32,757 nucleotides of DNA, from IMG/VR virus record IMGVR_UViG_3300044621_002104, positions 1 through 32,757 of that record; one strand, given 5' to 3'. Below, one piece after another: positions 120 through 31,180 of this stretch. Both the position numbers and the translations under genes were made by a program. How positions within the stretch are numbered: the stretch's first letter is position 1; every line of letters begins with the position of its first letter. Origin of the DNA: a virus. Under the pieces are notes generated by a model. It had not been told where the DNA came from, did not search any database, and saw nothing but the letters and a program-made list of their open reading frames with translations.

Positions 120-1175
120 TCAGGCCAGAATGTCGGTGATCATCGCGCCAGAACCGATCAGACCAGTGGTGCCGAGGCCCACGGGGTGCACAGCACGCTC
201 GACGGTGATTTCAGCACGAACCACACGACGCTCACGGATGTAGTACTCAGGACGAACGGCAGGGGTGCCGGTCAGCTGGTAGGTATAAGCGAAAGCCGGA
301 GTAGCGGCGTTAGCACCACCAGCAGGCATCACAGCGTCAGAAGGACCGTTGGGGCTGTAGAACAGCAGGACGCCGTTCTCAGGGAACACGGGCAGCAGCT
401 GACCGTTCTCGGCCAGATAGCGACCCTCAGCCACGCGGATGCCGCGCTCCAGACCGAAGTAACGAGCCAGCATGTCCACATCGATAGAATCGGCTGTGGT
501 GTACTTGATACGCTCGAGGATGCTCTGGTTGGTCAGCAGTTGGTCGAAAATGGCGGTACCGACGATCATCGAGTTCGGACGGATACCGATTTGGTACGAA
601 ACGCTACGCTTCAGAGTCAGCACAGCTTCGATCGGGTTCGAAGTGGGGTCGCTCCAAGGAGCGGCACCGGCAGAAGCACCGTAGGAGGTCTGGAACTGGG
701 TGAAGGTCTCGAAACCGAGGCCAGTCTGGGAACCGGCAACGCCGTTGTAAGGCTCGTAAGGGTTGAAGGAACCGGTCACGGTCACGACTTCAGCCACGGT
801 CTTCTCGTAGGCGTTCATCAGGCGGGACATAGCGTTGCGAGTTTCGATCGCACGCAGGTCAACCTGAGCAGGGCCTTCGCCAGCGTTCTCGATGACTTCT
901 TCGGGAAGTTCCCAAGCCACCACTTCCTGTTCCAGGGCGTAGGGCTCAGAATCGTAACGAGTCTGAACGTAAGGGATGTTGGTGCCATATGCACGACGGA
1001 AGTCGTTGATGGCGAACTGCTCTTTGCCGAAGCGCAGGATGCGGCCGGCACGAGTCGGGGTATCCACAACAGGCGCGATGAAGTTCGCGATGTTGGTGGA
1101 GGGGAGCATGAAACCTTGTGCCAGCGTAGTCAGAATAGGATCTACGCCCGCATAGGTTTGGGCTAGGTTCATCAT
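120..1175 (-). CDS. Major capsid protein
   Basis: This 351-aa protein is the best candidate for the major capsid subunit that builds the icosahedral shell. The N-terminal half has the pattern of phage capsid proteins of this size: a Pro/Thr-rich stretch ending TPTRAGRILRFGKEQF, then a long charged helix with EVIENAGEG and LRAIETRNAM, then Gly/Ser loops. It ends a head-gene run in Mu-like order: portal, protease/scaffold, MuF, decoration protein, capsid. Two adjacent ATG codons (1175 and 1172) are possible starts; a GGAG element lies about 11 nt upstream of the first. I see no clear maturation cleavage site. An HK97-like fold is inferred from context and family resemblance, not shown directly. 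Confidence 0.85.
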   Translation of the reverse strand: MMNLAQTYAGVDPILTTLAQGFMLPSTNIANFIAPVVDTPTRAGRILRFGKEQFAINDFRRAYGTNIPYVQTRYDSEPYALEQEVVAWELPEEVIENAGEGPAQVDLRAIETRNAMSRLMNAYEKTVAEVVTVTGSFNPYEPYNGVAGSQTGLGFETFTQFQTSYGASAGAAPWSDPTSNPIEAVLTLKRSVSYQIGIRPNSMIVGTAIFDQLLTNQSILERIKYTTADSIDVDMLARYFGLERGIRVAEGRYLAENGQLLPVFPENGVLLFYSPNGPSDAVMPAGGANAATPAFAYTYQLTGTPAVRPEYYIRERRVVRAEITVERAVHPVGLGTTGLIGSGAMITDILA

Positions 1176-1195
1176 GGGAGGGAGTACTCCGTAAG

Positions 1196-1224
1196 TCTAT
1201 AAAGATGATTTCAACGGGTTGCAA
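1196..1224 (-). promoter_or_regulatory. Weak sigma70-like promoter candidate before the capsid gene
   Basis: On the minus strand TTGCAA (1224-1219) and TATAGA (1201-1196) are separated by exactly 17 nt. Each hexamer differs from consensus at two positions. The predicted start would leave only a very short leader before the ribosome-binding site, which weakens the call. The -35 lies inside a perfect GGTTGCAACC palindrome that could itself be an operator. Confidence 0.22.
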
Positions 1225-1277
1225 CCGCTTGGACTTACACCCCGAAAGAGTAGCCAAGCGGTGAGCAACCAGATTAC

Positions 1278-1706
1278 TCAGCTGAACGAAACTGTCACCA
1301 TACGGCGACCACCGATGTCGATGAGGTCGCGAATGGTGGGCACAGTGCCGTCGGCTTGAACGGCGGTACCAGCGGAGCTGGCCTGACCGATGGCGTTCAC
1401 CAGCAGCGGGCTGTTGAAAGCGATGGCGCCGGAAGCGGGATCCACTTCGATCAGCAGCAGACCGGATGTGGCGACGGTGGCCAGACGGGGGCTGGCAGGA
1501 GCGTCAGCGAACAGGGGGATGAAGGCTTGGTTCACACCCAGGATGGTGGTAGGAGTTGCGCCGGGCAGGGTGCAAACGCCCATGGAGGCGCCAGCACTCA
1601 CAGCACGGAACTCACCGATGGCGACGGAAGGGTCGGCGGTGAAGGTTTCGGCGAAACGGATGTACTGCTTGCCGTAAGCAGGAGCAGCGTTAGTCGAAGT
1701 AAACAT
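1278..1706 (-). CDS. Head decoration / capsid-stabilising protein
   Basis: This 142-aa protein is rich in Ala, Gly, Val and Thr with alternating beta-strand patterns, no Cys cluster and no membrane segment. The composition, the repeated short turns (AVSAGASMGVC, AVQADGTVPT) and the position directly before the major capsid gene fit small decoration or cement proteins of the DUF2190-like type. Such proteins bind the capsid surface after expansion. It starts 65 nt after the MuF-like gene, with a GGGTAAAA element in that gap, and ends about 100 nt before the capsid gene. The role rests on composition and synteny rather than a diagnostic motif. Confidence 0.6.
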   Translation of the reverse strand: MFTSTNAAPAYGKQYIRFAETFTADPSVAIGEFRAVSAGASMGVCTLPGATPTTILGVNQAFIPLFADAPASPRLATVATSGLLLIEVDPASGAIAFNSPLLVNAIGQASSAGTAVQADGTVPTIRDLIDIGGRRMVTVSFS

Positions 1707-1763
1707 GTCTCAATTACGATTGGACTTTAATGTTGGCAAACGTGGGTTTACCAGTTGGGATGG

Positions 1764-1771
1764 TTTTACCC
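1764..1771 (-). promoter_or_regulatory. GGGTAAAA element directly after the MuF stop codon
   Basis: On the minus strand the MuF-like gene ends with TAG and is followed at once by GGGTAAAA. It is one of six same-strand copies in the window. Function unknown. Confidence 0.35.
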
Positions 1772-2545
1772 CTATCGGTACTCAATTCGACACCTGCAGC
1801 GGTCATAGCACCGACAGCCCTTGCCGGGCATCGGAAGCGAGCCGAGAGGCTGCCATCCTGAAGCGTCGTAGTTTTTGCAGTCAGGACACACACGCGGGTC
1901 GTGTCTCGAGATTCTCCTCATCTCCTTGTATCCACCATCCTGTTTGTCCATAAAGACACCCAGTTGGAAGAAACTGTAAGCGGGAGAAGAGACGTAACGA
2001 AGAACACGACCGAACAAAGAAGGCCAGGTCTTACCGACCGCCCTTTTCTGAGTCGTCTCAATGGAGGCCTGCTCAGCGGGTGATGTATCCATCCACTCTT
2101 CCGGAAAATCCGGGTCAAGATCGGGATCCACGTCTAAAACTCGGTTGAGATCAGGATCGGCAAAATCGAGAGAGTCGTCTCCGTATTTGAGAGTGCCATC
2201 ATCTAAATAGTCCTTGGTTTCTTTTAGGAAGACGTTAAGAGGAGGGAGCATGTCGCCGACGATCGACGGCCACGCTTTCTCCATTTTTTCTTTCGGCCGA
2301 CCGCTGCCCGCTCCGAGATAGACCGCCGCGAGAGCAGAAGTGAGGGTTTTGTCTACGAGAGCACGTTCGTACTCATCGAATTTCATCTGTCGGTCACGAA
2401 GACCTTTGACGATGACTCGACCCTCAGCCTCCATCCTCGCCTCCAGCTTGCCGAGGTCTGGATATTTTTTAGCCAGACGCTCAGCTTGCTTGTAGTAGGT
2501 CTCTCTCTGACGGGTGGCTAGGCCAACCATCGAGAGAAGATCCAT
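1772..2545 (-). CDS. MuF-like minor head protein
   Basis: This 257-aa protein is probably a minor capsid protein of the Mu gpF / SPP1 gp7 group, which associates with the portal inside the procapsid. The C-terminal 45 residues carry the recognisable signature: DPRVCPDC, then a GW-x-PLGSLP stretch, then PGKGCRC and DRCRC before the end. The N-terminal part is helical and charged; the middle contains an Asp/Pro-rich linker (DPDLNRVLDVDPDLDPDF). The six clustered cysteines could bind zinc. It starts 1 nt after the protease/scaffold stop, so translation is probably coupled. It is shorter than Mu gpF, suggesting that only the C-terminal MuF core and a reduced helical region are kept. Confidence 0.75.
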   Translation of the reverse strand: MDLLSMVGLATRQRETYYKQAERLAKKYPDLGKLEARMEAEGRVIVKGLRDRQMKFDEYERALVDKTLTSALAAVYLGAGSGRPKEKMEKAWPSIVGDMLPPLNVFLKETKDYLDDGTLKYGDDSLDFADPDLNRVLDVDPDLDPDFPEEWMDTSPAEQASIETTQKRAVGKTWPSLFGRVLRYVSSPAYSFFQLGVFMDKQDGGYKEMRRISRHDPRVCPDCKNYDASGWQPLGSLPMPGKGCRCYDRCRCRIEYR

Positions 2546-2546
2546 C

Positions 2547-5123
2547 TCAGGAGTACATTGCCTTCTTCAGGGCCTCGACGTAGTCGAGCTCGCCGCCAGA
2601 CTTCTCTACCATCGAGAGAGCCTTTTGGTGAGGGTCCAGGTCCACCTCATCCACGAACTTCATGGAACCACCAGCGTACTCGCTGAAGTCCACCAGGTTG
2701 GGAAGACGATCCAGGATGCTGAACAGCAGGCCAGTGGCGGTCTCACCTTCGGAGAACTCCATGGTGCCGAACTCCAGACCTTCAGCGAACTCCATGAGTT
2801 TTTTCTCGGGGATGATGGAATCCACCATCTTGCCTTGCTCATAGAGACCTTCGACGAAGCTGTGAATCTGATCGCGACGACGAGCGATCTGAGCCTCACG
2901 GTACTCGTGCTTGATGCGAGCGTTCTCGGCTTTCAGGGCCTGCAGCTCGGCGTAGAACTCACTGAACTCCTCGGACTCCGAGTAGTTCATCTTCTTGCCA
3001 CCCTTCTTGCCGCAGTCCTCTCCCATTTCCATCTCATCTTCATCGTAGTCGCACCCTTCTTTGTAGGTGGATCCGAATCCGGTCTTGGAGTAGGGGTTCT
3101 GGTCCTTCTCATGCTCGGCATAGCCGGTGCTAACACCGCTGGGGCCTGTCTCTTCAGCCACGCCACCTTCGAACTCGCCCGAGAGCATGTCCTTCTTGGA
3201 ACGAGGCATGCCAGCTTGAGCATCGACTTCGTTGTGGTCTTCGGCGAAGTGACCCTTTTCTTTCACTTCCATCGCACGCTTTTTCAGCGCGGGGGGAAGC
3301 TTGTCCATCTTGCTCTCGGCATGATCATCGGACATATGCTCCTCTTTCTCCTTCATCTTTTTCTTGATGAAGTCGGGCATTTCCTTGTGGTCGGCACCGC
3401 CGGTCACGCCGGAAGGACCTGTCACCTCTGCGGGCTCTTCGTCCTCATCGGAGTCGAAAGCACCAGGAGTCAGGGCTTTCTTACTGGACTTGGGCTCGCC
3501 TTTGTAGGACTCAGCGTGCTCAGCGTAGACTCCACCGGACTTCAGAGTTGTCTCGTTAGGACCACCCTCGAACTCGCCGGAGAGTTGCTTTTTCTTGCCT
3601 TCGGCGTAAACGCCTTCCTTGCCAGTCACCTCAGCAGGCTGGGGCTCGGCATAGTCAGCCATCACGGAACCCGGGATACCGCCACCGTGAGACTTGGGCA
3701 TCTTCTCACCGCCCTTGATGTACATCACTCGAGCGTTCTTGGCCTTAGCGACGTTCTCCACGCCAACGGCGAAGATCTCATCATCGGGCATTTCCTCGGT
3801 CTCAGTTGGGACCTTGGTCTCACCATCGACACGACCAGCAGGATTGCTGCCGGAGGCTGCTTCAGCATCGTTGACGCCGTAATCCACGTCGTCATCGTAC
3901 TGGTTGTTGTTCATCATTTGATCGCGACTCATTTCGTCGTACCGTCCTTCATCGTCAGGGTCAACATAACGACCGGTCTTACGACGGTCTTCTTCGATCT
4001 CATTGTTCTTGGCAGGGGGACGACCAGCGTCATGCTGCTCTTTGCCAGTGGAGATCTTGTCACGGCCAAAAGTGGCCTTTTCAGGAGTGGTCTTGCCTGT
4101 TTTGTAACGATCAGCCTGCTGCTCACCGCTCTTGGCGGTTTCGTAGCGGTCGTCGCCGTTGTAGCCGCCTTTAGGGCCGCCTTCGGCGTAGTTCACTTTG
4201 CCGGGCTCCATGCGGGGATTCCGCATTTTGGGAGCGTCGGCGCCACGCTCTTCGTGGTCAGTGTGCATTTCGTCTTCGTCTTCTTTGTAGACGTTCTCAA
4301 CCACCTGCGACACTTGGCCGTGGGGGGTTTTCTTCTTTTTCCGGCTGATGCCTTGTTCTTCCATGAATTCGTCCTTAGGGAACTGGTCTTCAAGATCTGC
4401 GACTGACCGAGCGTTATCCCCACGGCGTGGGCGTTCGGAAAAGTTTGCAGGGTTGCTGGGGTTTTCGATTTCGGATGCGTTGTCCTCTTGCTCCTCCACC
4501 TCAGCCGACGTGTCTTCCACTTTCTGTTCCTCCGGAGTTCCGACGGCGTCCGCGACAGCGGCACGCATCTCACCCCTGGCGAGATCGAGTTTCTCCTTGA
4601 GCATTTCAAGGGGACTCAAGTCACGAACGAGAGTTGGTCCCAGGTCCTTGTCAAACACCGTCATCGGATCGATGGCGACGGCGAAGTCATAGACTCCGAC
4701 ACGCTGATCCCATTCGGCAAAATTGAAGGGTTCCAAACCTTTCACCGCAGGGGGAGCGGCACCAAGCAGCGCCAAATGGCGAGCGGTCCACTTTCCGGGA
4801 TGCGGATTGATTTGGGAGTCTGGGGAGTAGAAGGAGATAGACACCTTTCGATAGTGTCCGTCTTTCACCAGGTCTTTCGCTACGTCAGTAAACGCAACGT
4901 TTGCGTACAGGTTATCACCCTGACGTTCAAAGCCTTTGATCCACCCGTATGAGGGCAGACTGTCAGAGTCACCCTGATGACCAAGCACAAGAGGTGCTTC
5001 GTGAATCTGGGGATCGTAGGAGGCAACGACCTGGTCTAGGTCTTTGGCACTGAAGCTTCGGGCCACACCCTGAGCTGACGTTTGATCGCCAGCCATAAAC
5101 ACATGAATGCGTTTTTGGAACAT
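2547..5123 (-). CDS. Prohead protease fused to capsid scaffold (Mu I-like), with a very long acidic linker
   Basis: This 858-aa protein has three parts. Residues 1-135 match the Mu gpI-like prohead protease family: FMAGDQTSAQG, APLVLGHQGD with His49, YGWIKGF, the YRKVSISFYS block with Ser95/Ser97, and LALLGAAPPAVKGLEPF. His49 and a Ser in the VSIS block are the likely catalytic residues. Residues about 140-690 are low-complexity, strongly acidic and repetitive (LSGEFEGG twice, AEVTG twice, TGPSGV twice). Residues about 690-858 form a charged helical scaffold with a coiled-coil stretch (LQALKAENARIKHEYREAQ). In Mu the separate scaffold Z is made from an internal start in I, and the same may occur here. 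The tripeptide [FY][AS]E recurs 14 times from residue 135 onward and may mark self-cleavage sites. The gene sits between portal and MuF genes. Confidence 0.85.
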   Translation of the reverse strand: MFQKRIHVFMAGDQTSAQGVARSFSAKDLDQVVASYDPQIHEAPLVLGHQGDSDSLPSYGWIKGFERQGDNLYANVAFTDVAKDLVKDGHYRKVSISFYSPDSQINPHPGKWTARHLALLGAAPPAVKGLEPFNFAEWDQRVGVYDFAVAIDPMTVFDKDLGPTLVRDLSPLEMLKEKLDLARGEMRAAVADAVGTPEEQKVEDTSAEVEEQEDNASEIENPSNPANFSERPRRGDNARSVADLEDQFPKDEFMEEQGISRKKKKTPHGQVSQVVENVYKEDEDEMHTDHEERGADAPKMRNPRMEPGKVNYAEGGPKGGYNGDDRYETAKSGEQQADRYKTGKTTPEKATFGRDKISTGKEQHDAGRPPAKNNEIEEDRRKTGRYVDPDDEGRYDEMSRDQMMNNNQYDDDVDYGVNDAEAASGSNPAGRVDGETKVPTETEEMPDDEIFAVGVENVAKAKNARVMYIKGGEKMPKSHGGGIPGSVMADYAEPQPAEVTGKEGVYAEGKKKQLSGEFEGGPNETTLKSGGVYAEHAESYKGEPKSSKKALTPGAFDSDEDEEPAEVTGPSGVTGGADHKEMPDFIKKKMKEKEEHMSDDHAESKMDKLPPALKKRAMEVKEKGHFAEDHNEVDAQAGMPRSKKDMLSGEFEGGVAEETGPSGVSTGYAEHEKDQNPYSKTGFGSTYKEGCDYDEDEMEMGEDCGKKGGKKMNYSESEEFSEFYAELQALKAENARIKHEYREAQIARRRDQIHSFVEGLYEQGKMVDSIIPEKKLMEFAEGLEFGTMEFSEGETATGLLFSILDRLPNLVDFSEYAGGSMKFVDEVDLDPHQKALSMVEKSGGELDYVEALKKAMYS

Positions 5124-5205
5124 GACTCTTACTTAACAACGACGGGTTTATTGGGGGTGCGAAACTTTGTCTCCCCTGGTAGTTTCCGTCGAATGACTGA
5201 GAGAG

Positions 5206-5213
5206 TTTTACCC
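5206..5213 (-). promoter_or_regulatory. GGGTAAAA element directly after the portal stop codon
   Basis: The portal gene ends TGA and is followed without a gap by GGGTAAAA on the coding strand. It lies about 85 nt upstream of the protease/scaffold start. It is one of six such sites; function unknown. Confidence 0.35.
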
Positions 5214-6629
5214 TCAACCAAAGATTTCGTCGTAGAGATCATCATCGTCAGATGATTCTGAAACGGCTTCATCTTCGGTTATTTTCTCATCTCCAAAGGG
5301 TTTCTCTTCACCGCCGAAGATCTTGTCATAGAGATCACCGTCTGCCTCAGGATCGTAAGATTCTGGAGTTCCTTCGACCTCAGCTTGAGGCGCCGCGGCT
5401 TGGAAATCCTCTTCATCAGCCAGGTCAACTTTGAAGTGATTTTGAATCCATTCTTTCTTCGGTTTGTAGCCCGACTGAATCATCAGGCTCACGTCAGCCA
5501 TCGTCAAGGTGGATTCTTCGAGACGGAATTGACGACTGATTGTTGGTGCCTCGACATTGACACCGAAGTTCAGATCGACGATCCAGCGGATGAGGGTGTC
5601 GCTCAAAGTCTGTGAAATCAGCTGGGAAAGCTCGGAAGCGCGGATGACACGGACCAAGTTTGCCACCTGAGAAGAAGCACGAGAGCCAGCTTCGGCTGTG
5701 CCTGCTTCATCCTCACCACACACCAACAGGGAAATCTCCTTGTCGATATACTCGATGAGATTCATGAAGATATCAGCTGAACCTGACGGATTGAGGAATT
5801 CGAGTTCGTATCCCTCAGGTAGAATCATCGCTGTCTCTTGAGACAGGTTGGAGAGGTGGTCATACAGAGTGTCGATCTCAACATTGGAGGCTGAGAGAGG
5901 AGCTTTTGCGATCGCGGTTGGCGTTGCGTAACGATCGCCGTACAGAACATAAGACTCGATAGCACGACGACGAAACTTAACGATCGGATACAGAATCCTG
6001 CCCAGTCCGGTACCATAGGGATCTCCAGTGTGCGAGAGCCAATAACGTTGAATGATGAACTTGCGAGCGGGAAGCTCGATGCCTTCAAACATTCGGTTGA
6101 AGGTCAGCACACGCATTGTGAAACCGGTGTCGGCTTCTTCCGATTCCTGGAACACAAAACGACGCTGGTCGCGGATGCGAACATCAAATGGGATGATGCC
6201 CTGTTTCGTCTTCTTCCACATCACCTCACCGACGGAGAATCCACAGACGAGCGCCTCACCGAGTCCTTTGTAGAGATCGTCAATGTCGAGAGAGGAAAGT
6301 GCCTGCTCAACGTAGTCCTTGACGGCAAGATCGCCCGGCTTTTCGGAAGCGGGGGTGATGAGCCAGTCTCGGGCTGTGATCTCCTGCATCAGTTTCATGA
6401 ACGACGCCTGGACTGAAGAGTCCCACAGTAGTCGTTTGTAGATGACGAGGGCGCGGTTGCCGCCCTTCTGAATGATGAGGTCGTCGTCTGGACGGACAAT
6501 CGTGTTCCCCTGTCCCGTGAAGGGAGAGGAACTGCCGAACATGTAGATCGACGATAAATTGTACGGATCTGTTGTATACTTAGCGACTTCACCCTGTGGA
6601 ACGGGCGGGATTTGGAAACGTTTCGCCAT
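5214..6629 (-). CDS. Portal protein (Mu gp29-like, DUF935 family)
   Basis: This 471-aa protein forms the dodecameric portal at the unique capsid vertex through which DNA is packaged. Family blocks appear in the expected order: RDQRRFVFQESE, LPARKFIIQRYW, GDPYGTGLGRILYP, FRRRAIESYVLYGDRYATPTA, and IPxG-type ILPEGYELEFLNPSG. The C-terminus is an acidic tail containing two copies of DLYDxIFG, one at the very end. The gene overlaps the gp25-like gene by 1 nt (TAATG), which decides the start. It heads the head-gene cluster, although tail genes lie upstream of it. Length is close to that of other Mu-type portals. Confidence 0.92.
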   Translation of the reverse strand: MAKRFQIPPVPQGEVAKYTTDPYNLSSIYMFGSSSPFTGQGNTIVRPDDDLIIQKGGNRALVIYKRLLWDSSVQASFMKLMQEITARDWLITPASEKPGDLAVKDYVEQALSSLDIDDLYKGLGEALVCGFSVGEVMWKKTKQGIIPFDVRIRDQRRFVFQESEEADTGFTMRVLTFNRMFEGIELPARKFIIQRYWLSHTGDPYGTGLGRILYPIVKFRRRAIESYVLYGDRYATPTAIAKAPLSASNVEIDTLYDHLSNLSQETAMILPEGYELEFLNPSGSADIFMNLIEYIDKEISLLVCGEDEAGTAEAGSRASSQVANLVRVIRASELSQLISQTLSDTLIRWIVDLNFGVNVEAPTISRQFRLEESTLTMADVSLMIQSGYKPKKEWIQNHFKVDLADEEDFQAAAPQAEVEGTPESYDPEADGDLYDKIFGGEEKPFGDEKITEDEAVSESSDDDDLYDEIFG

Positions 6630-7000
6630 TAGATGCTCAGGGTGAATGAGAGTTGCGGTTGCGGAACTCCGTTGATGTAATATGTGATGATGACTCTATA
6701 TAAACCACTGTCAGAGCCGGACCAATCGCCAGTGACGGTCACAGCGCTCAATTCCGGAACATCTTGTTCGATGGCTTGTTGAAATTGAGAGTTGATGACT
6801 GATGGCTTTATGACTTGGAAGATGAAGTCGTCTGTGCCATAGCTCGCTCTCATCACTCGCTCATACCAGCGAGTTTCAACGACCGAAAGCACGTGTTGAC
6901 TCACGAGATCGAGATCTGCGGAGACGGCAAGACTGCCATTCGATAGTGTGAGGGGATATGTCAGCCCCTGAATTCTTGGCTGAAGCGGATTAACACTCAT
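6629..7000 (-). CDS. Baseplate wedge protein, GPW/gp25 family
   Basis: This 123-aa protein belongs to the T4 gp25 / P2 gpW baseplate wedge group, a lysozyme-like structural fold that nucleates sheath assembly. The characteristic pattern is present: GLTYPLTLSNGSLAVS, an LDLVSQHVLSVV helix, ETRWYERVMRASYGTDDFIF, an N-SQFQQAIEQDVPEL helix, and a final VTVTGDW-YRVIITYYING strand pair. The Glu-Arg-Val-Met-Arg...Tyr-Gly core is the family hallmark. It overlaps the upstream ribbon-helix-helix gene by 4 nt (ATGA) and the portal gene by 1 nt. Its presence near the sheath supports a contractile tail. Confidence 0.85.
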   Translation of the reverse strand: MSVNPLQPRIQGLTYPLTLSNGSLAVSADLDLVSQHVLSVVETRWYERVMRASYGTDDFIFQVIKPSVINSQFQQAIEQDVPELSAVTVTGDWSGSDSGLYRVIITYYINGVPQPQLSFTLSI

Positions 7001-7305
7001 CGACGATACCGTTTGGCCATTTCAGAATTGAGTTTCATCATGCGGGAGCTTTTCTCCCTGAGGTCTATCTTTGCGTCTGCCACTCTTCCCAGTTCCTCGC
7101 GGAGTTTGTCAAGCGGCAGAGAGATATAGAGGACTGGTTCGAACAGCTCGTGTCGCTGTTCGGTGTGAGTCTCAGGTTCCCTTTCTTCGGACTCTTCAAG
7201 AATGCGGGCGCAGAGGGCGCTCAAAGAGACGCCCTCCATTGCCGCACGTTGTTTGAGCTTCGAGTGAAGGGAATCCTCGACGTTGAATAGAATTCGTTTC
7301 GCCAT
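6997..7305 (-). CDS. Ribbon-helix-helix (Arc/CopG-type) protein
   Basis: The 102-aa protein begins MAKRILFNVEDSLHSKLKQR, then MEGVSLSALCARILEE. This is the strand-helix-helix pattern of Arc/CopG-type DNA-binding proteins, which act as dimers and insert the N-terminal strand into the major groove. The C-terminal 60 residues are charged and helical and unassigned. I place the start at 7305 because AAAGGGGAATCC precedes that ATG at normal distance. An ATG at 7320 overlapping the sheath stop (TGATG) would add five residues. A putative DNA-binding protein between sheath and baseplate genes is unusual; it may regulate late transcription or be a structural adaptor of the same fold. Confidence 0.7.
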   Translation of the reverse strand: MAKRILFNVEDSLHSKLKQRAAMEGVSLSALCARILEESEEREPETHTEQRHELFEPVLYISLPLDKLREELGRVADAKIDLREKSSRMMKLNSEMAKRYRR

Positions 7306-7319
7306 GGATTCCCCTTTCA

Positions 7320-10300
7320 TCAGATAGCGTTGTCTTGACCCACGCCCAGAGCGTCGAGCTCGTTCTGCATGTTGCCGATGGCGACACGGATGAGATCGAC
7401 TTCGATGCGCTCCAGTGTAGGCACTGGAACCACGAACACCTTAGCGTGAACGATTCCGGCCTCCAGCGATGTGGTGGTCTGAATCCGCTCATCGCAGATG
7501 ACCTGGAACGCCTGAGCGGGCCGCGATCCGAACAGTGCTCCACGGACATACAGCTCGTTGAGGATGCTGTTGCCGATGGAGATGATCTTGTTGTAAACGA
7601 GGCCGAAACCGTCGATCACGTTGAAGATCTGGCTGTCGAAGGCGCGACGCAGAGAACCGTAAACCACGTTCATGATCACGCGAGTGTTCACGAACTGGAA
7701 TAGGCGCTGTTCGGCGTCCTGCTGGTTGATGCGTGTACGACCACCCCAGATGAACACGGTCGAGCCGTATCCAGGCAGTGTGCGGCAGACATTGCAACCA
7801 CGCGGGTTGAGAATGTCTTGCTGGGTGCTGTTGATCGGGATCTGAACAGCGGACACACCGTTGAGTGGGAACTTGACGCCAGCGGGCGGATACTGGAACC
7901 CTTCGCTGCGGTAGCGGCGGATGGCCACACCGGTAACGTATGGGCTGGCAGGAATCCAAGCGCCGGAGCTGTTCTTGAGATACGGGCCGTAGTAGGCGAT
8001 GAAACCGCGGGGGTTGTAGTACTGCTGACTGTCGTCGAGCAGCTTCTGAGCATCGTCGATACCGGTGGCGACCAGCACACATGCGGGAACACCTTCGTTG
8101 AAGGTTCCACGCAGGCCGTAGTCGACCAGCTCTTCGGATGTCACAGCGTTGAAACGCCACAGGTTGCTCGGAGCTTCCTTATAGGCATTGTAACGCAGGG
8201 ACAGGGAAGCACCCCACAGAACACGCTTAACTCCACCACCGTCAGTGTAAGTCGGGGTGATGTAAGCCTGATCGGAACGGTCGTTGGCGACCAGAGGCGA
8301 GCAGAAGAAGCTCTGTGTGTCTTGATCACCCAGGACCAGATCACCCAGGAATCCAGCGTTGTCGGGATTCGGGATGCCGGCGTCGAACTCACCATAGGGA
8401 GAGTAGTACTTCTCGTCGGGTTGATTCTCCACGCGGTAGAAACCGAGTGTGTGAACCAGACCTTGACCGGCAGGTCCTGTCAGGGGATCGAGGTTTGCGG
8501 GATAGAAGGTCGGCAACACGTTGAAGGTGTTGAAACCATACTTACGACCGCGGATGATGTTCACCACACCCTCATTGTTGTAGAGGCTGGTGTTCTCAGG
8601 AGCGACAAGCAGTCCGCTGTAGGATAGTGTAGTCTGTCCAGCGGTAAAGCCACCCGTCGGGAACTGAATGAAGATCCGGCTATTGAGGTTCGTCAGGGTT
8701 GTGGCCAGACGGAACTGATTGCCATTGATCACACTCACGTAGTACTTCACAGAAGCCTGAGAAGTCGAGGCGGTCACCAATGTTCCACCGGTCGCCTTAG
8801 TAATGGGAGCGGTGAAGTAGATGACGGAACCGTTCACCAGACCGTGGTTGAGACATCCGAACACGACCGGGCTGTTGGCCACCGAAGGATTTTCCTTGGT
8901 GAGATCAGTCTCGGCGAATGTCCGAGTGAACTGGGCCAACTGATAGTCCTCTGTGCTGTTCTGGAGTGTTCCAGGCAAGTGCAGAGTGTTCAGATCGAGA
9001 AGAGTGGTGGACTCGTTCAGGATCAGGTCGGAAGTCTGGCCGTCGATCTCCACATAGAGGTCCCAAGCGGGAACTTCGTAGGTGAGGACGCCGGTGCCTT
9101 TGGTCTGCAGAGTTGCGAAACCAGCGGCGGAAACCAGTGGCGAACCGCCGGTGAAGACCAGGGTCAGAGGCATGTCAGCCTCAGTGTAACCGGAGCCAGC
9201 GTTGGTGATTTCCACATCCACGATGCCGAAACCGAGCACAGTGGCGCCGGAAGCCGGAACAATCGTGTTGCCCGAATCCAGCGGCGAGGCTGTGAAGGTC
9301 AGCGAAGGTGCGGCGAGATAGCCGGCACCTCGGTCGGCGATGGTCACACCCGACACGGGGAAGCCCTTAGTCGCAACGGCTGTGGCCGGAGCGGAGGGGT
9401 TACCGCTAGTGAAGGACACAGAGACCACGTCAGTCGCGGCGTAGCCGGAACCGCCAGTGGTCAGGCTCACCGAAGCGACAGCACGTCCGATGGCATAGGT
9501 CAGACCAGCACCCGAACCGAAGGAATCGGAGGGGTCGTTGATCACACTCACCAGAGCGCTCTCATCGTAGCCGGAACCGCCTGTGTTCAGAGTAACCGAA
9601 GCCAGGGAGAATCCCTTGTACACGGTAGCAGTTGCTCCAGCGCCTGTGGTGTCTCCACCTGCCGGAGTAATGGTGAGTGCGACAGGGTCGGCAGCTGTGT
9701 ATCCGGAACCAGCGTTGGTCACGGAGATGCTAGCCACAGCTTTACCGATCGCCACAGCACCTGCGACTGCACCAGCACCAGTGGTATCACCAGGGGCGTT
9801 GGCAAAACCAGCCGAAGCGGTCGTGTAGCCCAGACCGTTGGTTCCCACGGTGACAGAAACCACGGCGTAGCCGAGGGTCACAGTCAGTGTCGGAGCAGTG
9901 GTCCAGTTTGTGGGGTCGGAGTCAGTTACGGTGCCGTAGCTGCCTGCCAGAGCCAGGTTCACGTTGGCCTGTGTCCAGCCAGAGCCGGCGGAGCCGACAC
10001 TAAACGAGGCGACAGAGCCAGCATCGATGACATAGTCGATGACGATGTCAGTCTCAGCACCAGCACCGGCGAGGGTGATGGTTCCACTCAGGCTAGGGGC
10101 AGAAGCGACTTCACCAGCGGAAGCCACGACAGCGGCGCCACCCTCAGTTGCGAGAACTGCGGTAGCGGCGGCACTAGCACCGTCACCAGCGAAGGAGACG
10201 ATAGGGGGCAGAGTGTAGCCAGATCCACCGTTGGAGACCGCCACAGTTGCCACACCGCCGGAAGCGGCGAGGATGGCGGAGAAGGTCGCACCAACGCCTG

Positions 10301-12476
10301 TTGTACCAGGCAGGGTGACAGACGGAACAGCGGTGTACAGCGAACCACCAGAGAAGGCATTGATGGCCACGATACGACCACCTGTGGTGGAGAGAGTCGC
10401 GGAGGCGGAAGCAGACGAACCACCGGTGAAGCTCACCGAGGGAGTCGCGATGAAGTTCTGACCAGGGGTGGCCAGAGTCAGGGTCTTGACTGTACCAGTC
10501 GCGGCCAGAGTCGCGGTGGCAGTAGCAGCCACACCACCAGCAGCGGCGGGAGCCGTGATGCCGACAGACGGAGTCGACTCATAGTCAGCTCCACCGGAGG
10601 TGAGAGCCAGTTTGGCGACTTTACCGCCGACAGTTGCCAGGGTGCAGGTCACGCTAGCACCAGCACCAGGATCACCACCAGCATTCACAACGTTGACGGT
10701 TGGAGTGTTGGTGTAGCCGGAACCAGCGACGGTCACCGAAACTTCGTCCACCAGACCAGTCGAGCCGAGAATGGCGTTGCCGGTGGCAGTGATGCCGCCA
10801 GCGGCGGAGGGTGCCGGGAAAGCGACGCTGGGCAGGAAGCCCACGTTGTAGCCACTACCTGGGTTGGTGATTGTGACGCCAGTCACGGCATCGCCAAGTT
10901 CACCAGAACCGGAGGAAACATCGACGGGGATGCAACCAGGAGGCAGGGTGTTCACGCCTGGGTACTGAGGAGTGCCATCACCGTCGAGTCCACCTTGGCT
11001 GATGACCCAGTTGTAGGCAGTGATTGCCTGAGGATAGGTCTCAGCGAAGTAGACGTAACCGGTGAGGGTCTTGTTGGAGGGAGTCAGGTAAGTGGGGACC
11101 ACATACACAGTCTCGCCTTCCAAGGAGGAGAGTGCACCAACACAGTCGCTCAGGGTCACGGGAGTGCCGGCTTCCTTGGTGGAAGGCCAGTTTTCGCCTT
11201 GAAGGTCGAGCAGACCGGGACGGTCGTAGGCGGGAGTGGTGCTTGTCGAGAACGAGATGATTCCATTGTCGCGAAGCGACAGGAAGTTGTTGAAAGGAAC
11301 GTTCAGGTTCTGGGAACCGTTGACGGCCGTTTCAGGGTTGCTCTCAGTGCCACTCAGAGGAGTGTAGCGCAGTTGAACATAGTCAGTATTGTCAGCGGTC
11401 CACTCATAGACAGAGTTGCCAACAAGGAAATCCTGACCGGTCTTCAGCGGGGCAGCAGCGGCATGCTGAGTGAAGCCATTGTACTCGAGAATGTCAGTCA
11501 CGTTGTACGGACCGGCATCAGCGATGGCCATCCACTTGTGGCTGTTCAGCTCGGCCTGGAAAGCCATTTCTTGGCCAACCAGACGGCGACCTTCGGGACC
11601 AAACTTGGCGAAAGCACAAGGAGCGGTCAGGTAGCCCTGATCCTCTTGATCCACGAAAGCGGTGCGCAGGCACTGCAGGTAGTCAGCAACGAGTTCGTTG
11701 GTGTTCTCGCTATCAGGGATAACGGGACCCACGGTGTACGCGTTCAGAGTGAACACGTAGTAGGAACCATCGCTCGGGGGCTCACTCTCGGGAACCACAC
11801 TGATGGGAGCGTTGAACTCACGACCGGCGAGGTACTCGAAAGCACACTCGGCGAACTGCTCACTGCAGACTCCCAGATCGCGGACGATGGTGCCAGCGGA
11901 GACGTTAGGGTCTGTGGTGACAGCGCGAGCGACTGCGTCGCGAATGGCGATAGCAATCTTCTTGTTATTGTCGAAGTTGCCCTCGACGTAATCCACGGGA
12001 ATCGCAACGGGAACGCCCTTCCAAGTGCCGGAAGCAGTGAACTCACCGAGGCGAGCGCCGTTGATCAGCAGTTGAGCGTGGACGATGTCACCGGCTTCCA
12101 GAGGGGTGGAAACACCCAGACCGTTGGTCTTGAAGCCAGAGGGGTTGAGCTGCACTTCCATCACGTTGGCGGGAGTGCCAACGCGGATCACACGCAGGTC
12201 ACCGACGTAGCTTTGTGTGAAGAAAGCGTCGACGCACTGGTAGGACAGCAGTTCGATCTTGCCGCTAGGAATAGCGCCGCCGATCAGACGTACATACTCA
12301 CGAGTGTTGGTGACTTGCACCGGCTCATTGAAGGGGAAGAGAGTCGTGGGAATCTCAGGCTCCACTTCGACCAGCATGTAGACAGTGCTAAATGCCGCGA
12401 TTGCGGGGGTCGCCGACTGTCCGGCGACCTCATTGATATAAACTCCGGGGGCTCCCCCGAAAGAAATTGTTGCCAT
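7320..12476 (-). CDS. Giant contractile tail sheath protein with an internal repeat array
   Basis: This 1718-aa protein is the tail sheath subunit, far larger than usual (typically 400-700 aa). The N-terminus (MATISFGGAPGVYINEV) is typical of sheaths. The C-terminal region has the family pattern: YGSTVFIWGGRTRIN, then NVVYGSLRRAFDSQIFNV, GALFGSRPAQAFQV, and an EAGIVHAKVFVVPVPTLE strand. Residues about 535-1125 are an insertion of about 13 beta repeats. I chose the ATG at 12476 rather than the in-frame GTG at 12539 because the sheath N-terminus begins there; no strong Shine-Dalgarno is seen. The gene follows a 142-nt gap after the LysM-like gene. The core presumably contracts while the insert decorates the outside of the tail. 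Confidence 0.88.
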   Translation of the reverse strand: MATISFGGAPGVYINEVAGQSATPAIAAFSTVYMLVEVEPEIPTTLFPFNEPVQVTNTREYVRLIGGAIPSGKIELLSYQCVDAFFTQSYVGDLRVIRVGTPANVMEVQLNPSGFKTNGLGVSTPLEAGDIVHAQLLINGARLGEFTASGTWKGVPVAIPVDYVEGNFDNNKKIAIAIRDAVARAVTTDPNVSAGTIVRDLGVCSEQFAECAFEYLAGREFNAPISVVPESEPPSDGSYYVFTLNAYTVGPVIPDSENTNELVADYLQCLRTAFVDQEDQGYLTAPCAFAKFGPEGRRLVGQEMAFQAELNSHKWMAIADAGPYNVTDILEYNGFTQHAAAAPLKTGQDFLVGNSVYEWTADNTDYVQLRYTPLSGTESNPETAVNGSQNLNVPFNNFLSLRDNGIISFSTSTTPAYDRPGLLDLQGENWPSTKEAGTPVTLSDCVGALSSLEGETVYVVPTYLTPSNKTLTGYVYFAETYPQAITAYNWVISQGGLDGDGTPQYPGVNTLPPGCIPVDVSSGSGELGDAVTGVTITNPGSGYNVGFLPSVAFPAPSAAGGITATGNAILGSTGLVDEVSVTVAGSGYTNTPTVNVVNAGGDPGAGASVTCTLATVGGKVAKLALTSGGADYESTPSVGITAPAAAGGVAATATATLAATGTVKTLTLATPGQNFIATPSVSFTGGSSASASATLSTTGGRIVAINAFSGGSLYTAVPSVTLPGTTGVGATFSAILAASGGVATVAVSNGGSGYTLPPIVSFAGDGASAAATAVLATEGGAAVVASAGEVASAPSLSGTITLAGAGAETDIVIDYVIDAGSVASFSVGSAGSGWTQANVNLALAGSYGTVTDSDPTNWTTAPTLTVTLGYAVVSVTVGTNGLGYTTASAGFANAPGDTTGAGAVAGAVAIGKAVASISVTNAGSGYTAADPVALTITPAGGDTTGAGATATVYKGFSLASVTLNTGGSGYDESALVSVINDPSDSFGSGAGLTYAIGRAVASVSLTTGGSGYAATDVVSVSFTSGNPSAPATAVATKGFPVSGVTIADRGAGYLAAPSLTFTASPLDSGNTIVPASGATVLGFGIVDVEITNAGSGYTEADMPLTLVFTGGSPLVSAAGFATLQTKGTGVLTYEVPAWDLYVEIDGQTSDLILNESTTLLDLNTLHLPGTLQNSTEDYQLAQFTRTFAETDLTKENPSVANSPVVFGCLNHGLVNGSVIYFTAPITKATGGTLVTASTSQASVKYYVSVINGNQFRLATTLTNLNSRIFIQFPTGGFTAGQTTLSYSGLLVAPENTSLYNNEGVVNIIRGRKYGFNTFNVLPTFYPANLDPLTGPAGQGLVHTLGFYRVENQPDEKYYSPYGEFDAGIPNPDNAGFLGDLVLGDQDTQSFFCSPLVANDRSDQAYITPTYTDGGGVKRVLWGASLSLRYNAYKEAPSNLWRFNAVTSEELVDYGLRGTFNEGVPACVLVATGIDDAQKLLDDSQQYYNPRGFIAYYGPYLKNSSGAWIPASPYVTGVAIRRYRSEGFQYPPAGVKFPLNGVSAVQIPINSTQQDILNPRGCNVCRTLPGYGSTVFIWGGRTRINQQDAEQRLFQFVNTRVIMNVVYGSLRRAFDSQIFNVIDGFGLVYNKIISIGNSILNELYVRGALFGSRPAQAFQVICDERIQTTTSLEAGIVHAKVFVVPVPTLERIEVDLIRVAIGNMQNELDALGVGQDNAI
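9100..10890 (-). repeat. About 13 divergent copies of a 40-50-aa GSGYT beta repeat inside the sheath gene
   Basis: The encoded protein repeats the pattern V-x-V-T-x-G-G-S-G-Y-T, then about 12 residues, a V-x-F/V-T/P strand, and a Gly/Ala-rich GAGA-x-A stretch. Examples are VSVTVAGSGYT, VAVSNGGSGYT, ISVTNAGSGYT, VTLNTGGSGYD and VEITNAGSGYT. The DNA is correspondingly repetitive (recurrent gtagccggaaccgcc-like segments on the plus strand). One unit is closely related to a segment of the 1039-aa protein at 18912-22031. Confidence 0.85.
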
Positions 12477-12618
12477 TTTAATATGGTCGGAAGTCCCTTC
12501 TTTTCTTAAGACGTGATGGTGGCCTCGGGGAAGTTCCACCTACGGTCTCCGCAGAGTCACGCTCAAGGTTCTGTCGCTTTTCGACGGCCCGCTTTGTCCT
12601 CCGTTTCCGGTGCGGTCG

Positions 12619-14683: not shown

Positions 14684-14937
14684 GTGGTTGGTGACTTTTC
14701 GTCTGGTGTCTGGTACATTTTTACCCCAACAAGACGCACAAAAGCCTCCAAGTCCCCGTATGAGGTCCCTGGAGGCAATTTCATGATGTTCATGTTGGCG
14801 TATGTGAGCGAAGTTTTCGCTCCCTTGATGTCTCCCTGAAGAAAACGATCGAGTGCATCAATCGCCCACTCCTCAGTGTAGACAACCTCAAGACAAGGCG
14901 AACCTTGGTCGCTGCATTGTGTTGATTGATTGGACAT
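14680..14937 (-). CDS. Unidentified 85-aa protein upstream of the tail chaperone
   Basis: The protein (MSNQSTQCSDQGSPCLEVVY...) has a short Ser/Gln/Cys N-terminus followed by a compact helical domain (TEEWAIDALDRFLQGDIKGA, then SYGDLEAFVRLVGVKMYQ). I do not recognise it. I chose the ATG at 14937 because GAGGT precedes it at normal spacing; an in-frame start at 14958 would add seven residues. The start lies inside the 3' end of the kinase gene (about 50-nt overlap) and the stop overlaps the chaperone start by 4 nt. This suggests a translationally coupled tail-assembly protein. A GGGTAAAA element lies within its coding sequence. Confidence 0.6.
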   Translation of the reverse strand: MSNQSTQCSDQGSPCLEVVYTEEWAIDALDRFLQGDIKGAKTSLTYANMNIMKLPPGTSYGDLEAFVRLVGVKMYQTPDEKSPTT

Positions 14938-15448
14938 TTTCCCATACCTCGTTCGCACCCCAACCAGGTTCGACCATGAATGATGGGAACATCGTCACAT
15001 AGCGATAGAAGTTCTCCATCTCATCGATGTAGAAGTGGTGCTCATTCTGACGAGCCATAAACTCGTCACGGGCCATCCAATGTGATGGTTGACGCTGCCT
15101 CTTGTGAAGCTCGTCCCAATGAAGTGGGGCGCACCAGTGCCAAGGCTTGGTGACGCCCACGTGAATAACGTCGTGTTTCTTACTCAACTCAAATTCAAGA
15201 TCCATGATCTCAACGAGGTGATCATGGTTTCGCTTGCGAAATCGCTCCAAAATGAAAGCGCAGAGGTAGCTGCGATCCCAAATCTGATCTCCTCCTTCGT
15301 CAAGGTTTCTGCGGTAGATGTCGAAAATGTTGTCGTCGAAGGGGTCGGGTGCGTTGTGGTGCTTGACCGTAAATCCTGAGAGAGCTGAAAGTGTGGAGGC
15401 CAGAGTTGATTTGCCGACTCGGTCGGGGCCTCCAAGTAGAATGAGCAT
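14888..15448 (-). CDS. P-loop deoxynucleotide-kinase-like protein (paralogue 1)
   Basis: This 186-aa protein has a Walker A motif at residues 6-15 (GGPDRVGKST) and an IWDRSYLCAFILERF block. The latter corresponds to the DR[SY] substrate/Mg motif of thymidylate and deoxynucleoside kinases. Further conserved points are HVGVTKPWHW and ARQNEHHFYIDEMENFYRYV. It is clearly paralogous to the 30521-31102 protein, sharing [AP]DRVGKST, WDRS/FDRS, KPWHW and a [FY]Y-E-x-V-T-x-FPS ending. The probable role is phosphorylation of a dNMP, possibly a modified one. A DNA-acting kinase such as those in hypermodified phages cannot be excluded. It starts 3 nt after the RlpA-like gene and lies among structural genes, away from the other metabolic genes. 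Confidence 0.72.
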   Translation of the reverse strand: MLILLGGPDRVGKSTLASTLSALSGFTVKHHNAPDPFDDNIFDIYRRNLDEGGDQIWDRSYLCAFILERFRKRNHDHLVEIMDLEFELSKKHDVIHVGVTKPWHWCAPLHWDELHKRQRQPSHWMARDEFMARQNEHHFYIDEMENFYRYVTMFPSFMVEPGWGANEVWENVQSINTMQRPRFALS

Positions 15449-16075: not shown

Positions 16076-18874
16076 TCAGAGTAAACCGCGTTGGACGAGG
16101 GAGTAGCGGGTTTTGAGCTTGTCGATGGCGCCGATCTCGCCCAGTTCCCGCATGCTGTATTCCTGGCCATTGGGCTCATCTTTCCCTTGAGGGTGAGATG
16201 GGCTGACGGTGCACTCGTGTGGAGTTTTACGAATGCGCTCGTCTATGGCCACGGAAGAGAAGAAAGCGCGACTCAGAGGCACATCCGACATCCCCACAGA
16301 AGCCTGGAAGCGGGCCCACGTGTAGAGATGCGCAATCTGATAGGCGACTGCCCAAAGCTCAGTGTGCTTCTCTGGGGCCATCCACCAGATCTCGTCATGG
16401 ATCGAGATGATGAATCGAGCTTGCAGCTTGTACTCACGAATGAGCCAGTGTGCCGCAGTGAGGATGGTAGCCAGGATTTCAGCGCCTGAGGCTTGAATCG
16501 TCCAGTTGATTCGACTGGTGAGGAAGTCATCACCGACCACAGCTGGCCTCATGGCTGTGGAGATTTTAGTGCCGAGGCAGGGGAGAGATGGCACCTGCTG
16601 TTTCAGTGCGATTTGCTCCATGTAGTTGAAGCAGCCACTGTCAGTGCCGCCTAGAAGTGGCTCGGATTTGAATTTCCTGAAACCCTTTTTGGCCTCCAGC
16701 ATTTTCATGGCGAGGTTGTTTAACTCGCGAGGGTTACGATCAGGGAATTTACGACGAATGGTGTTGGCCACTGTCCGCATTCCCGCACCGTACAACACAG
16801 CGAAACCCACGCCTTTCGCGGTGTCACGGTCGACACCTACCACTTTCGCCAGTGCTGAGTGTGGGTCAGTTCCGTGCTCTTTCGAGCCACTCAACACACT
16901 GAATCCCATCGGAGAGCCACCGACAACACCTGTGTCCCACGCATCACAGTAGGCCGAAGCGATCTGAAGCTCCTGGCCGTCGAAGTCAGCGCCGACGATT
17001 CGCCAACCGTCAGGAGCAGACACTCGGGTCTTCAGTTCGGTGCCGATGCGATAGTTTTTGGTCGAGCACATGGTAACCATCAGTGGCTCCACGGTCCGCC
17101 GAGTCACAGTGCCGTGAGCGAGAATCTCAGGCAGCGTGATGTAGGCATCCTCGCCATGGGGGTTGTGGGCCTTCACGAAGATGCGATCCATCACCCGTTT
17201 CCGAACCGAGGTCCAGTAGGAGGTGGCGTTTGCGATCTCGAGAGCACGCTTTGCCTGAGGGAGGTCACTGTCAAGGCGACCTACCTTCATATCTTCGACG
17301 AAGTCCTTTGTCAGTAGAACGCCGACATTGTCTTTCTGGTTTTTGGGATGCGGGATCTTGACTAGTTCCTTATTCTCGTCGTAGAAACACCAACCCTGCT
17401 TTTTGGTCATCACGATGGGCGAACCCTCCCACTTCAGCTTCAGCATGAGGTGAGCGAGTTGACTCTTGGTTGTGATGCGCTGGTCGGGGTCCTTGACGAA
17501 GTCACGATACCAGGTCGGGATGTTCGCGTACTTACCCTTCTCCGTCTTGACCTCCCAGTCCAGCTGGTGAAGCCAGGGGTCCCGGTCAGCCCACGCCAGT
17601 GCTGCGTCGTGATCCTTGTTGTAGATCTCCCGCCATGTTTCATAGTGAGCATGTGCCAGCTGACGACACACATCACCCATCTCACGGATGTGCTCGTGAT
17701 AGGCATCCTCACACTGCTGAATCCACTGCTTCCAGTTGTCGGGAAGGGGAATCACCGAACCATTGAGGTGGTACATGCCACACAGTCCGACCAAACTCGG
17801 AGTGGAGTCGAGATACTTTGGCCACAGCGCTTGGAACAGCTCGGCAGTATACAGTGCGTCCTTGATGGCGTAGTCGAGGGCTTCGAAGATCGCAACACGA
17901 ATGCCACCAAGATCTGGAGAGTTCACGAACAGATCACGAACTTCCTTGTCGCTGTATCCAAGCTTCTTCACATTATCGTCGCCGAAGTATTTGCGAACCT
18001 CATAGACGTGAAAGTTGTAACACTCCACAAGGGAGTTTGTTGCGCCTTTGTCGAGCCACTTCGGAGCGAAACGGAGTTTCCGCTTCTCATCCTCAGTCAT
18101 TTCTTCAGGTTCTTTACCAGCCAGCACGTAAAGCCAACGCTGACCACCTGCCAGACCAGATACGCCGATATGAGCAGAAAGGGTGTCAAAGTAGAAGTTT
18201 TCGGGCTCGGATCGATCAAGGGAATATGCCTCACGAGAGCGGACACGATCGTAGGAGATGTTGTGGCCGGCGACGAACCGATTTTCCCCAATGGGGATCA
18301 TCTCATATTGAACCCACTGATCTACCGGAATCGACGGATCAATGAGTTCATCAGCGATCCAAATGTAAGCTGCTTCCGACGAGAGAGCCGTGCCAATGAT
18401 GGGGAACGCTCCACCTTGAACGAAGGTCTCAGTATCGAAAGTGAACGCTGACTCAAGCGGATACGGTACCGTGTCTGTAATCCACTCTCCGCTCTTTCCA
18501 ACTGTGTAGCGAGTCCACCCAGGATTGAGGACAATGTCGTCAAGACCCGGGATCGGCGCGAGGGGCGCTTTAGCGAAATCATCTGCTGCTTTTTTATGAT
18601 GGCCAATTTGTTCCTCTGCAATCTTCTCGAAGTGATCCTCGATGGTCACACCTTTGAGATCTGGCAGAGGCAGAGGCCCGTCGTACATGCCATCGGCGTG
18701 GCTGACAGGCACGGGAATTTTGAACTTCTCCATAAGAGAAATCGCCCGGTCCAACTGTTTCTGAGTTGGTTCCGGGCGAGGAACAGTGCCGAAGAGCTTC
18801 CGGTGAATCTCGTCTGAGACCACCGGATAGCCGAGTTCATTCTTGCGCATAAGCGGCACGTTGAGTTTTGTCAT
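16076..18874 (-). CDS. Family A DNA polymerase collinear with mitochondrial DNA polymerase gamma
   Basis: This 932-aa replicative polymerase carries a 3'-5' exonuclease and a polymerase domain. Exo I is FTFDTETF (Asp147, Glu149), Exo II GHNISYDR near residue 205, and Exo III YAIKDALYT near residue 337. Motif A is VGADFDGQEL (Asp near 630), motif B DRDTAKGVGFAVLYGAG near 680-696, and motif C SIHDEIWW near 826. The details match Pol gamma rather than E. coli Pol I or T7: GTVTRRTVEP, GTDPHS, GGTDSGCFNYMEQIA, LTSRINWTIQ, LSRAFFSSVAIDERIRK, and N-terminal blocks LGYPVVS and PGWTRY. In motif B the position of human Tyr951 is Phe, which in family A enzymes favours rejection of dideoxynucleotides. 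The protein is shorter than human POLG (1239 aa), mainly in the spacer. The start is ATG 18874, not the TTG before it. Confidence 0.95.
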   Translation of the reverse strand: MTKLNVPLMRKNELGYPVVSDEIHRKLFGTVPRPEPTQKQLDRAISLMEKFKIPVPVSHADGMYDGPLPLPDLKGVTIEDHFEKIAEEQIGHHKKAADDFAKAPLAPIPGLDDIVLNPGWTRYTVGKSGEWITDTVPYPLESAFTFDTETFVQGGAFPIIGTALSSEAAYIWIADELIDPSIPVDQWVQYEMIPIGENRFVAGHNISYDRVRSREAYSLDRSEPENFYFDTLSAHIGVSGLAGGQRWLYVLAGKEPEEMTEDEKRKLRFAPKWLDKGATNSLVECYNFHVYEVRKYFGDDNVKKLGYSDKEVRDLFVNSPDLGGIRVAIFEALDYAIKDALYTAELFQALWPKYLDSTPSLVGLCGMYHLNGSVIPLPDNWKQWIQQCEDAYHEHIREMGDVCRQLAHAHYETWREIYNKDHDAALAWADRDPWLHQLDWEVKTEKGKYANIPTWYRDFVKDPDQRITTKSQLAHLMLKLKWEGSPIVMTKKQGWCFYDENKELVKIPHPKNQKDNVGVLLTKDFVEDMKVGRLDSDLPQAKRALEIANATSYWTSVRKRVMDRIFVKAHNPHGEDAYITLPEILAHGTVTRRTVEPLMVTMCSTKNYRIGTELKTRVSAPDGWRIVGADFDGQELQIASAYCDAWDTGVVGGSPMGFSVLSGSKEHGTDPHSALAKVVGVDRDTAKGVGFAVLYGAGMRTVANTIRRKFPDRNPRELNNLAMKMLEAKKGFRKFKSEPLLGGTDSGCFNYMEQIALKQQVPSLPCLGTKISTAMRPAVVGDDFLTSRINWTIQASGAEILATILTAAHWLIREYKLQARFIISIHDEIWWMAPEKHTELWAVAYQIAHLYTWARFQASVGMSDVPLSRAFFSSVAIDERIRKTPHECTVSPSHPQGKDEPNGQEYSMRELGEIGAIDKLKTRYSLVQRGLL

Positions 18875-18881
18875 CAAATAA

Positions 18882-18898: not shown

Positions 18899-18916
18899 TC
18901 TGAGGGAAACCTCAGA
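18899..18916 (-). other. Hairpin over the stop codon of the Ig-like protein gene
   Basis: TCTGAGG and CCTCAGA form a perfect 7-bp stem with a 4-nt loop. The TGA stop (18914-18912) lies in the stem. There is no T-run after it, so it is not a standard intrinsic terminator; it lies 11 nt before the TATACT box of the polymerase promoter candidate. Confidence 0.5.
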
Positions 18917-30518: not shown

Positions 30519-30526
30519 TTTTACCC
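30519..30526 (-). promoter_or_regulatory. GGGTAAAA element containing the stop codon of the second kinase
   Basis: The kinase gene ends GGA GGG TAA, and the TAA is part of GGGTAAAAATCCC. It lies about 20 nt before the 114-aa gene start. It is one of six same-strand copies. Confidence 0.35.
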
Positions 30527-31117: not shown

Positions 31118-31180
31118 AGAGTTACTATAGCAAAAATGGCCAAGTTATCTTAAGCCTTGTGACAGTTTCTCAACTGGCAC
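31118..31180 (-). promoter_or_regulatory. Hairpin-promoter cassette C
   Basis: On the minus strand GTGCCAGTT, loop GAGA, AACTGTCAC (31180-31159) overlaps the stop codon of the mutase gene. After 29 nt comes an extended -10, TGCTATAGT (hexamer 31129-31124), and 6 nt later GTGGAAAACAAAAACATGG. The layout is nearly identical to cassettes A and B. Confidence 0.7.

Follow-up and report, generated by a model that had tools for sequence, protein, structure and literature searches.

The 932-residue ORF polG, carried by a 32,757-nt IMG/VR fragment (the whole stretch of DNA analysed, here called the window), is a full-length member of the DNA polymerase gamma (Pol gamma) subfamily, including in regions beyond the motifs shared by all family A enzymes, and is almost certainly the proofreading family A enzyme that replicates the DNA of an S-CBWM1-like cyanophage. 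It is not a novel kind of polymerase, being one of the further homologues predicted in 2020, when the Pol gamma of Microcystis phage Mic1 was added to the family and shared ancestry with opisthokont Pol gamma was proposed (PMC7156551). For the earlier members that paper cites Chan et al. 2011 (A-HIS1/2, the first cyanophage report), Sabehi et al. 2012 (S-TIM5) and Xu et al. 2018 (S-CBWM1). The family has a bearing on how the mitochondrial DNA polymerase arose, and as far as the literature surveyed goes the cyanophage enzymes are the only non-eukaryotic relatives of Pol gamma known.

The gene is intact and lies where a previous reading of the sequence alone (the sequence-only reading) had located it (Table 1). 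No decisive ribosome-binding site was found to fix its start, and TTG at 18877, the ATG at 18874 used here and a Met codon at 18850 are all possible. Comparison with relatives 87–91% identical gave a dN/dS of ~0.06 (leaving out L010, L015 and L060, mis-picked ORFs of 23–27% identity, and L014, too divergent for dS), and polG is therefore under strong purifying selection. Motif alignment showed that the exonuclease residues (Exo I D147/E149, Exo II N205/D209, Exo III Y335/D339) and the polymerase residues (Pol A D630/E635, Pol B R683/K687/Y695, Pol C H826/D827) are all present.

Table 1. Features of the window, with the domains of the polymerase and the evidence for each
Feature	Position (nt)	Strand	Evidence or remark
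polG, Pol gamma-type family A DNA polymerase, 932 aa	16076..18874 (stop codon 16076-16078 included)	-	Homology, motifs, tree, predicted fold
Pol gamma N-terminal domain, residues 1-131	18482..18874	-	Profile match to POLG residues ~70-182, E 3e-14; absent from Pol I and T7 polymerase
3'-5' exonuclease domain, residues 69-354	17813..18670	-	PF18136 mitochondrial polymerase exonuclease domain, E 2.3e-58; Exo I-III motifs
Thumb and short spacer region, residues 361-505	17360..17794	-	Matches yeast MIP1 (E 3.9e-11); human POLG has ~190 aa more in this region
Polymerase core, residues 588-870	16265..17113	-	GTVTRRTVEP and Pol A, Pol B, Pol C motifs
DNA gyrase/topoisomerase IV subunit A homologue, 678 aa	24056..26092	-	PF00521 E 1.3e-97; 50% to S-CBWM1 gp73; conserved upstream neighbour
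Hypothetical gene, S-CBWM1 gp75 homologue	23338-23886	-	Conserved between gyrA and polG
Hypothetical gene, S-CBWM1 gp76 homologue	22517-23338	-	Conserved between gyrA and polG
Structural module	120..12539	-	Same order as S-CBWM1 gp167-gp175; includes baseplate wedge
Tail sheath	7320-12539	-	Structural module
Portal	5214-6629	-	Structural module
Head maturation protease homologue	2547-5123	-	Structural module
Major capsid protein	120-1175	-	Structural module

When the polG protein was searched with phmmer against all PDB chains, the 14 distinct sequences found at E <= 1e-3 were all Pol gamma, the best being yeast MIP1 (9c51, E 1.4e-115), with mouse and human POLG near 1e-105. The alignments run collinearly with the human, mouse and yeast enzymes from residue 8 to residue 904, bearing out the whole-length collinearity that the sequence-only reading had proposed, and identity to human POLG is 30–38% in every segment. 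Pfam gave the mitochondrial exonuclease domain PF18136 (E 2.3e-58), the general family A domain PF00476 reaching just 42 bits (E 7e-11), while the PHROG match was to DNA polymerase PHROG 22619 (E 1e-230), with a weaker one to phrog_17 (E 5e-27). Likeness to POLG outside the common polymerase motifs, on which that reading had staked its claim, was found: the N-terminal residues 1–130 reached POLG at E 3e-14 as a 15-sequence profile (E 0.004 to 0.03 as a single sequence), residues 361–505 alone reached yeast MIP1 at E 3.9e-11, and residues 489–932 alone reached POLG at E ~1e-70. The five sequence blocks quoted as POLG-like are all present in the order given (LGYPVVS at 14–20, PGWTRY at 118–123, DPWLHQLDW at 432–440, GTVTRRTVEP at 588–597 and AFFSSVAIDERIRK at 870–883 of the protein); the last four have clear human counterparts (EGWTRY, DPWLWDLEW, GTITRRAVEP and AFFSAVDIDRCLRK), but LGYPVVS, aligned with LDIQMLS, is a weak one. 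The suggested structural comparison likewise points to a Pol gamma fold: an AlphaFold model (pLDDT 84, pTM 0.84) had as its top 36 Foldseek matches only Pol gamma structures (TM 0.70–0.83), followed by Klenow and T7 polymerase at ~0.35, so that the predicted fold is far nearer to Pol gamma (TM 0.82) than to Pol I or T7 polymerase.

The equivalent of POLG Tyr951 in the window enzyme is Phe691, within Pol B, as had been read from the sequence. The replacement is lineage-wide: all S-CBWM1-like and A-HIS sequences have Phe at this position, and the S-TIM5-like sequences, Mic1, human and yeast have Tyr, a contrast already published for the phage isolates in 2020 (PMC7156551). Since the incorporation of dideoxynucleotides by Pol gamma has been ascribed largely to Tyr951 (review, PMC6264456), we infer that Phe691 should make the window enzyme discriminate against them. 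Because the residue varies among the phage enzymes, we do not treat Tyr at 951 as defining Pol gamma; it is absent from the window enzyme and likewise from those of S-CBWM1 and A-HIS1/2, which are named Pol gamma in the literature.

The distance from the DPW to the PH motif is 75 residues in the window enzyme versus ~260 in human chain numbering, and most of the human spacer is therefore missing. Human POLG has a targeting signal and an accessory subunit, POLG2. A POLG2-like HGTP_anticodon domain was not found in 12 polG phage records (14 of 14 controls were positive), and the pairing of POLG2 with a long spacer contact region that characterizes the metazoan holoenzyme is not seen here. Because the accessory-contact spacer is mostly missing and the related phages have no POLG2-like gene, the window polymerase may well work as a single subunit. 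As a separate observation, the Pol A–Pol B spacing (window ~16815-16985) is 56–57 residues in the window enzyme, S-TIM5, Mic1, human and yeast, and 83–113 in S-CBWM1, A-HIS1/2 and the contig L134, reflecting a lineage-specific insert.

The same 12 records (four complete isolates and eight large contigs, the window's own phage being incomplete) were searched for replisome partners. Neither a DnaB/Twinkle-type (gp4) helicase nor a phage-type single-subunit RNA polymerase was found in any of the 12, the T7 and P-SSP7 controls being positive for both; the combination that marks a T7-type (autographivirus) replisome is not seen in these records. A DUF5906 primase/helicase, absent from T7, occurs in 10 of them, across all four lineages of polG phages; in S-CBWM1 it is gp136. 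We suggest that the window polymerase would copy the phage genome, that its 3'-5' exonuclease would edit errors, and that it probably works with a DUF5906 primase/helicase, a partner proposed from the related phage genomes.

Phylogenetic analysis (459 columns, seven outgroups, a site-heterogeneous model, and human and yeast as the only two eukaryotic sequences) recovered the Pol gamma enzymes as a clade of their own (100/100), to the exclusion of the T7, Pol I and other phage polymerases; the window enzyme falls within it, as the sequence-only reading had anticipated. It is a new branch inside the S-CBWM1-like lineage (100/100), with L014 as its nearest row. The phage closest to opisthokont POLG is Mic1, the sister of the human-yeast pair (100/99) in both trees that we built; in the better-rooted one A-HIS is added to this group (91/81). 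The other tree, with four distant outgroups, placed the root inside the S-CBWM1 clade, a position that we set aside as unreliable given outgroup branches of length 5–10. Constraining all phage enzymes to one clade cost 8.8 log units (AU p 0.052); with that value and two eukaryotic sequences, a mitochondrial Pol gamma nested within the phages is favoured, yet unproven.

Considering these results, we tentatively put forward, as something short of probable, that opisthokont mitochondrial Pol gamma came from within a radiation of cyanophages, its closest kin being Mic1-like phages, and that mitochondria obtained their polymerase, helicase and RNA polymerase from different phages and not from a single T7-like ancestor. 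Separate sources are suggested because the polG phages carry DUF5906, without a Twinkle-type helicase or a phage-type RNA polymerase. That Pol gamma instead passed from an early eukaryote to phages appears unlikely to us: with just two eukaryotic sequences in the trees, an all-phage clade with the eukaryotes outside it is only marginally worse, but the best tree sets human and yeast with Mic1, and then A-HIS, inside a phage diversity of four deep lineages with differing virion types. Either direction of transfer concerns the history of the family and not the identity of the window gene, and the polG proteins surveyed here provide a defined set for a rooted test of where the mitochondrial polymerase originated.

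As to that identity, we argue against a common T7- or Pol I-type phage enzyme that resembles POLG only through the shared family A motifs. The weaker phrog_17 and PF00476 matches do express a general family A kinship; however, T7 polymerase and E. coli Pol I share only 15–26% identity with the polG protein in the exonuclease and polymerase parts, their alignment to its N-terminal domain is limited to 20–28 residues, and the sequence, the fold and the tree all favour Pol gamma. Given the N-terminal and spacer matches, the predicted fold and the tree, we reject the T7/Pol I type as extremely improbable. An assembly chimera or eukaryotic contamination, joining a mitochondrial polymerase gene to a phage contig, has a still smaller, practically negligible likelihood, no evidence for it having been found, polG being 53% identical to the S-CBWM1 enzyme and only ~30% to the human one, and the window gene order being found again in dozens of other, independent contigs as well as in the sequenced isolate S-CBWM1, which rules it out.

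The polymerase of the window is seated in a phage genome of the S-CBWM1 type, of which these 32.8 kb are a part. Most window genes match S-CBWM1 (gyrase A 50%, polG 53%, portal 57%, major capsid 65%), and both the order gyrA-gp75-gp76-polG-gp78 to gp83 and the order sheath-portal-protease-gp171-gp172-capsid are the same in the two. The polG and structural modules adjoin in the window and are far apart in S-CBWM1. The order gyrA-gp75-gp76-polG-neck-sheath is retained in most S-CBWM1-like loci examined. By the shared arrangement of its polG and structural genes the window groups with the S-CBWM1-like phages (Aokuangvirus relatives). Since it encodes a tail sheath, the window is a fragment of a contractile-tailed phage. 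The structural genes had been described as Mu-like head genes; they do include head genes, but the Mu likeness comes down to one weak Pfam match (the protease, 27.1 bits versus a cut-off of 25.2), and they are better described as S-CBWM1-like head and tail genes with a sheath. The host is probably a cyanobacterium, judging from S-CBWM1 and from psbA, whose presence on some contigs of this lineage fits such a host.

Several other genes of the window and its relatives deserve mention. A 1039-aa protein (18912-22031, minus strand), encoded between the gp76 homologue and polG, has no Pfam or PHROG match; many relatives, like S-CBWM1, have no counterpart there, and the versions in close relatives are only 31–86% alike. 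In the tail sheath protein (1739 aa) the sheath match is limited to the last ~230 residues, the long N-terminal extension resembling other virion proteins, and the protease homologue has 858 aa versus ~480 aa in S-CBWM1, the alignment covering the first 256 residues only. Upstream, the window encodes a ThyA-type thymidylate synthase (27989-28867, minus strand), where S-CBWM1 has a ThyX annotation, and a protein resembling UDP-galactopyranose mutase (31170-32279, minus strand). Two proteins with weak nucleotide-kinase matches (14888-15448 and 30521-31117, minus strand) look like paralogues, since they match the same place in relatives. In S-CBWM1 itself, gp8 (L232:3729-5165), annotated as an SNF2 DNA repair protein, carries a Pfam Tet_JBP oxygenase domain (E 4e-18), a possible sign of DNA base modification.

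Members of the family are widespread among environmental phage contigs and all but missing from prokaryote genomes. Among 50,697 phage records, matches over at least 80% of the length were confined to S-CBWM1, the S-TIM group, Mic1 and A-HIS1/2, and IMG/VR held at least 141 or 163 relatives, depending on the pattern set; the fetched loci, many of them in duplicate, yielded 211 full-length polG ORFs, reduced to 43 representatives at 85%. Of two pattern-based scans of GTDB (85,000 prokaryote genomes), the first gave no polG and the second a single phage-like copy, lying in two pieces on separate contigs of a Microbacteriaceae metagenome bin; none was found among plasmids. The bin's polG (L224 and L225) is 57% identical to that of the window, with phage structural genes alongside on L224 and psbA in the same bin, and is probably that of a mis-binned cyanophage. 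S-CBWM1-like polG also occurs on contigs of jumbo-phage size (L061, L068, L063 and L069, of 279, 277, 190 and 201 kb), one of which carries psbA.

Finally, the known systems can be set beside the window enzyme. The closest is the S-CBWM1 DNA polymerase gamma (gp77, MG450654), with 53% identity over 99% of the protein, the same Phe at the Tyr951 position, the same neighbours (gyrA, gp75, gp76 and the neck genes) and the same sheath-portal-protease-capsid order; it differs in a Pol A–Pol B interval that is 36 residues longer (93 versus 57), and its genome is without the 1039-aa gene beside polG. The sequence-only reading, which named S-TIM5 as the precedent, was right in calling the window gene a further phage copy but left the much closer S-CBWM1 unnamed: the S-TIM5 DNA polymerase (JQ245707) is a full-length Pol gamma homologue of 38% identity, though in a separate well-supported lineage, with Tyr at 951 and another gene neighbourhood. 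The Mic1 DNA polymerase gamma (MN013189; PMC7156551), also full-length (32% identity), differs in being the phage enzyme nearest to human and yeast Pol gamma, in its Tyr at 951 and in being split by an intron within motif A (L004:6827-7119, between GADVDS and QELW); in L160 and L161, near-identical to Mic1, polG is split at the same place. The polG products of A-HIS1 and A-HIS2, siphoviruses of Acaryochloris (PMC7156551), are 31–32% identical and share Phe at 951 with the window enzyme, but have inserts between Pol A and Pol B. Human POLG and yeast MIP1, in turn, are collinear with nearly the whole window protein (22–40% identity by segment) and have the same predicted fold and catalytic residues, human POLG differing in a spacer ~190 aa longer and in Tyr951 versus Phe.
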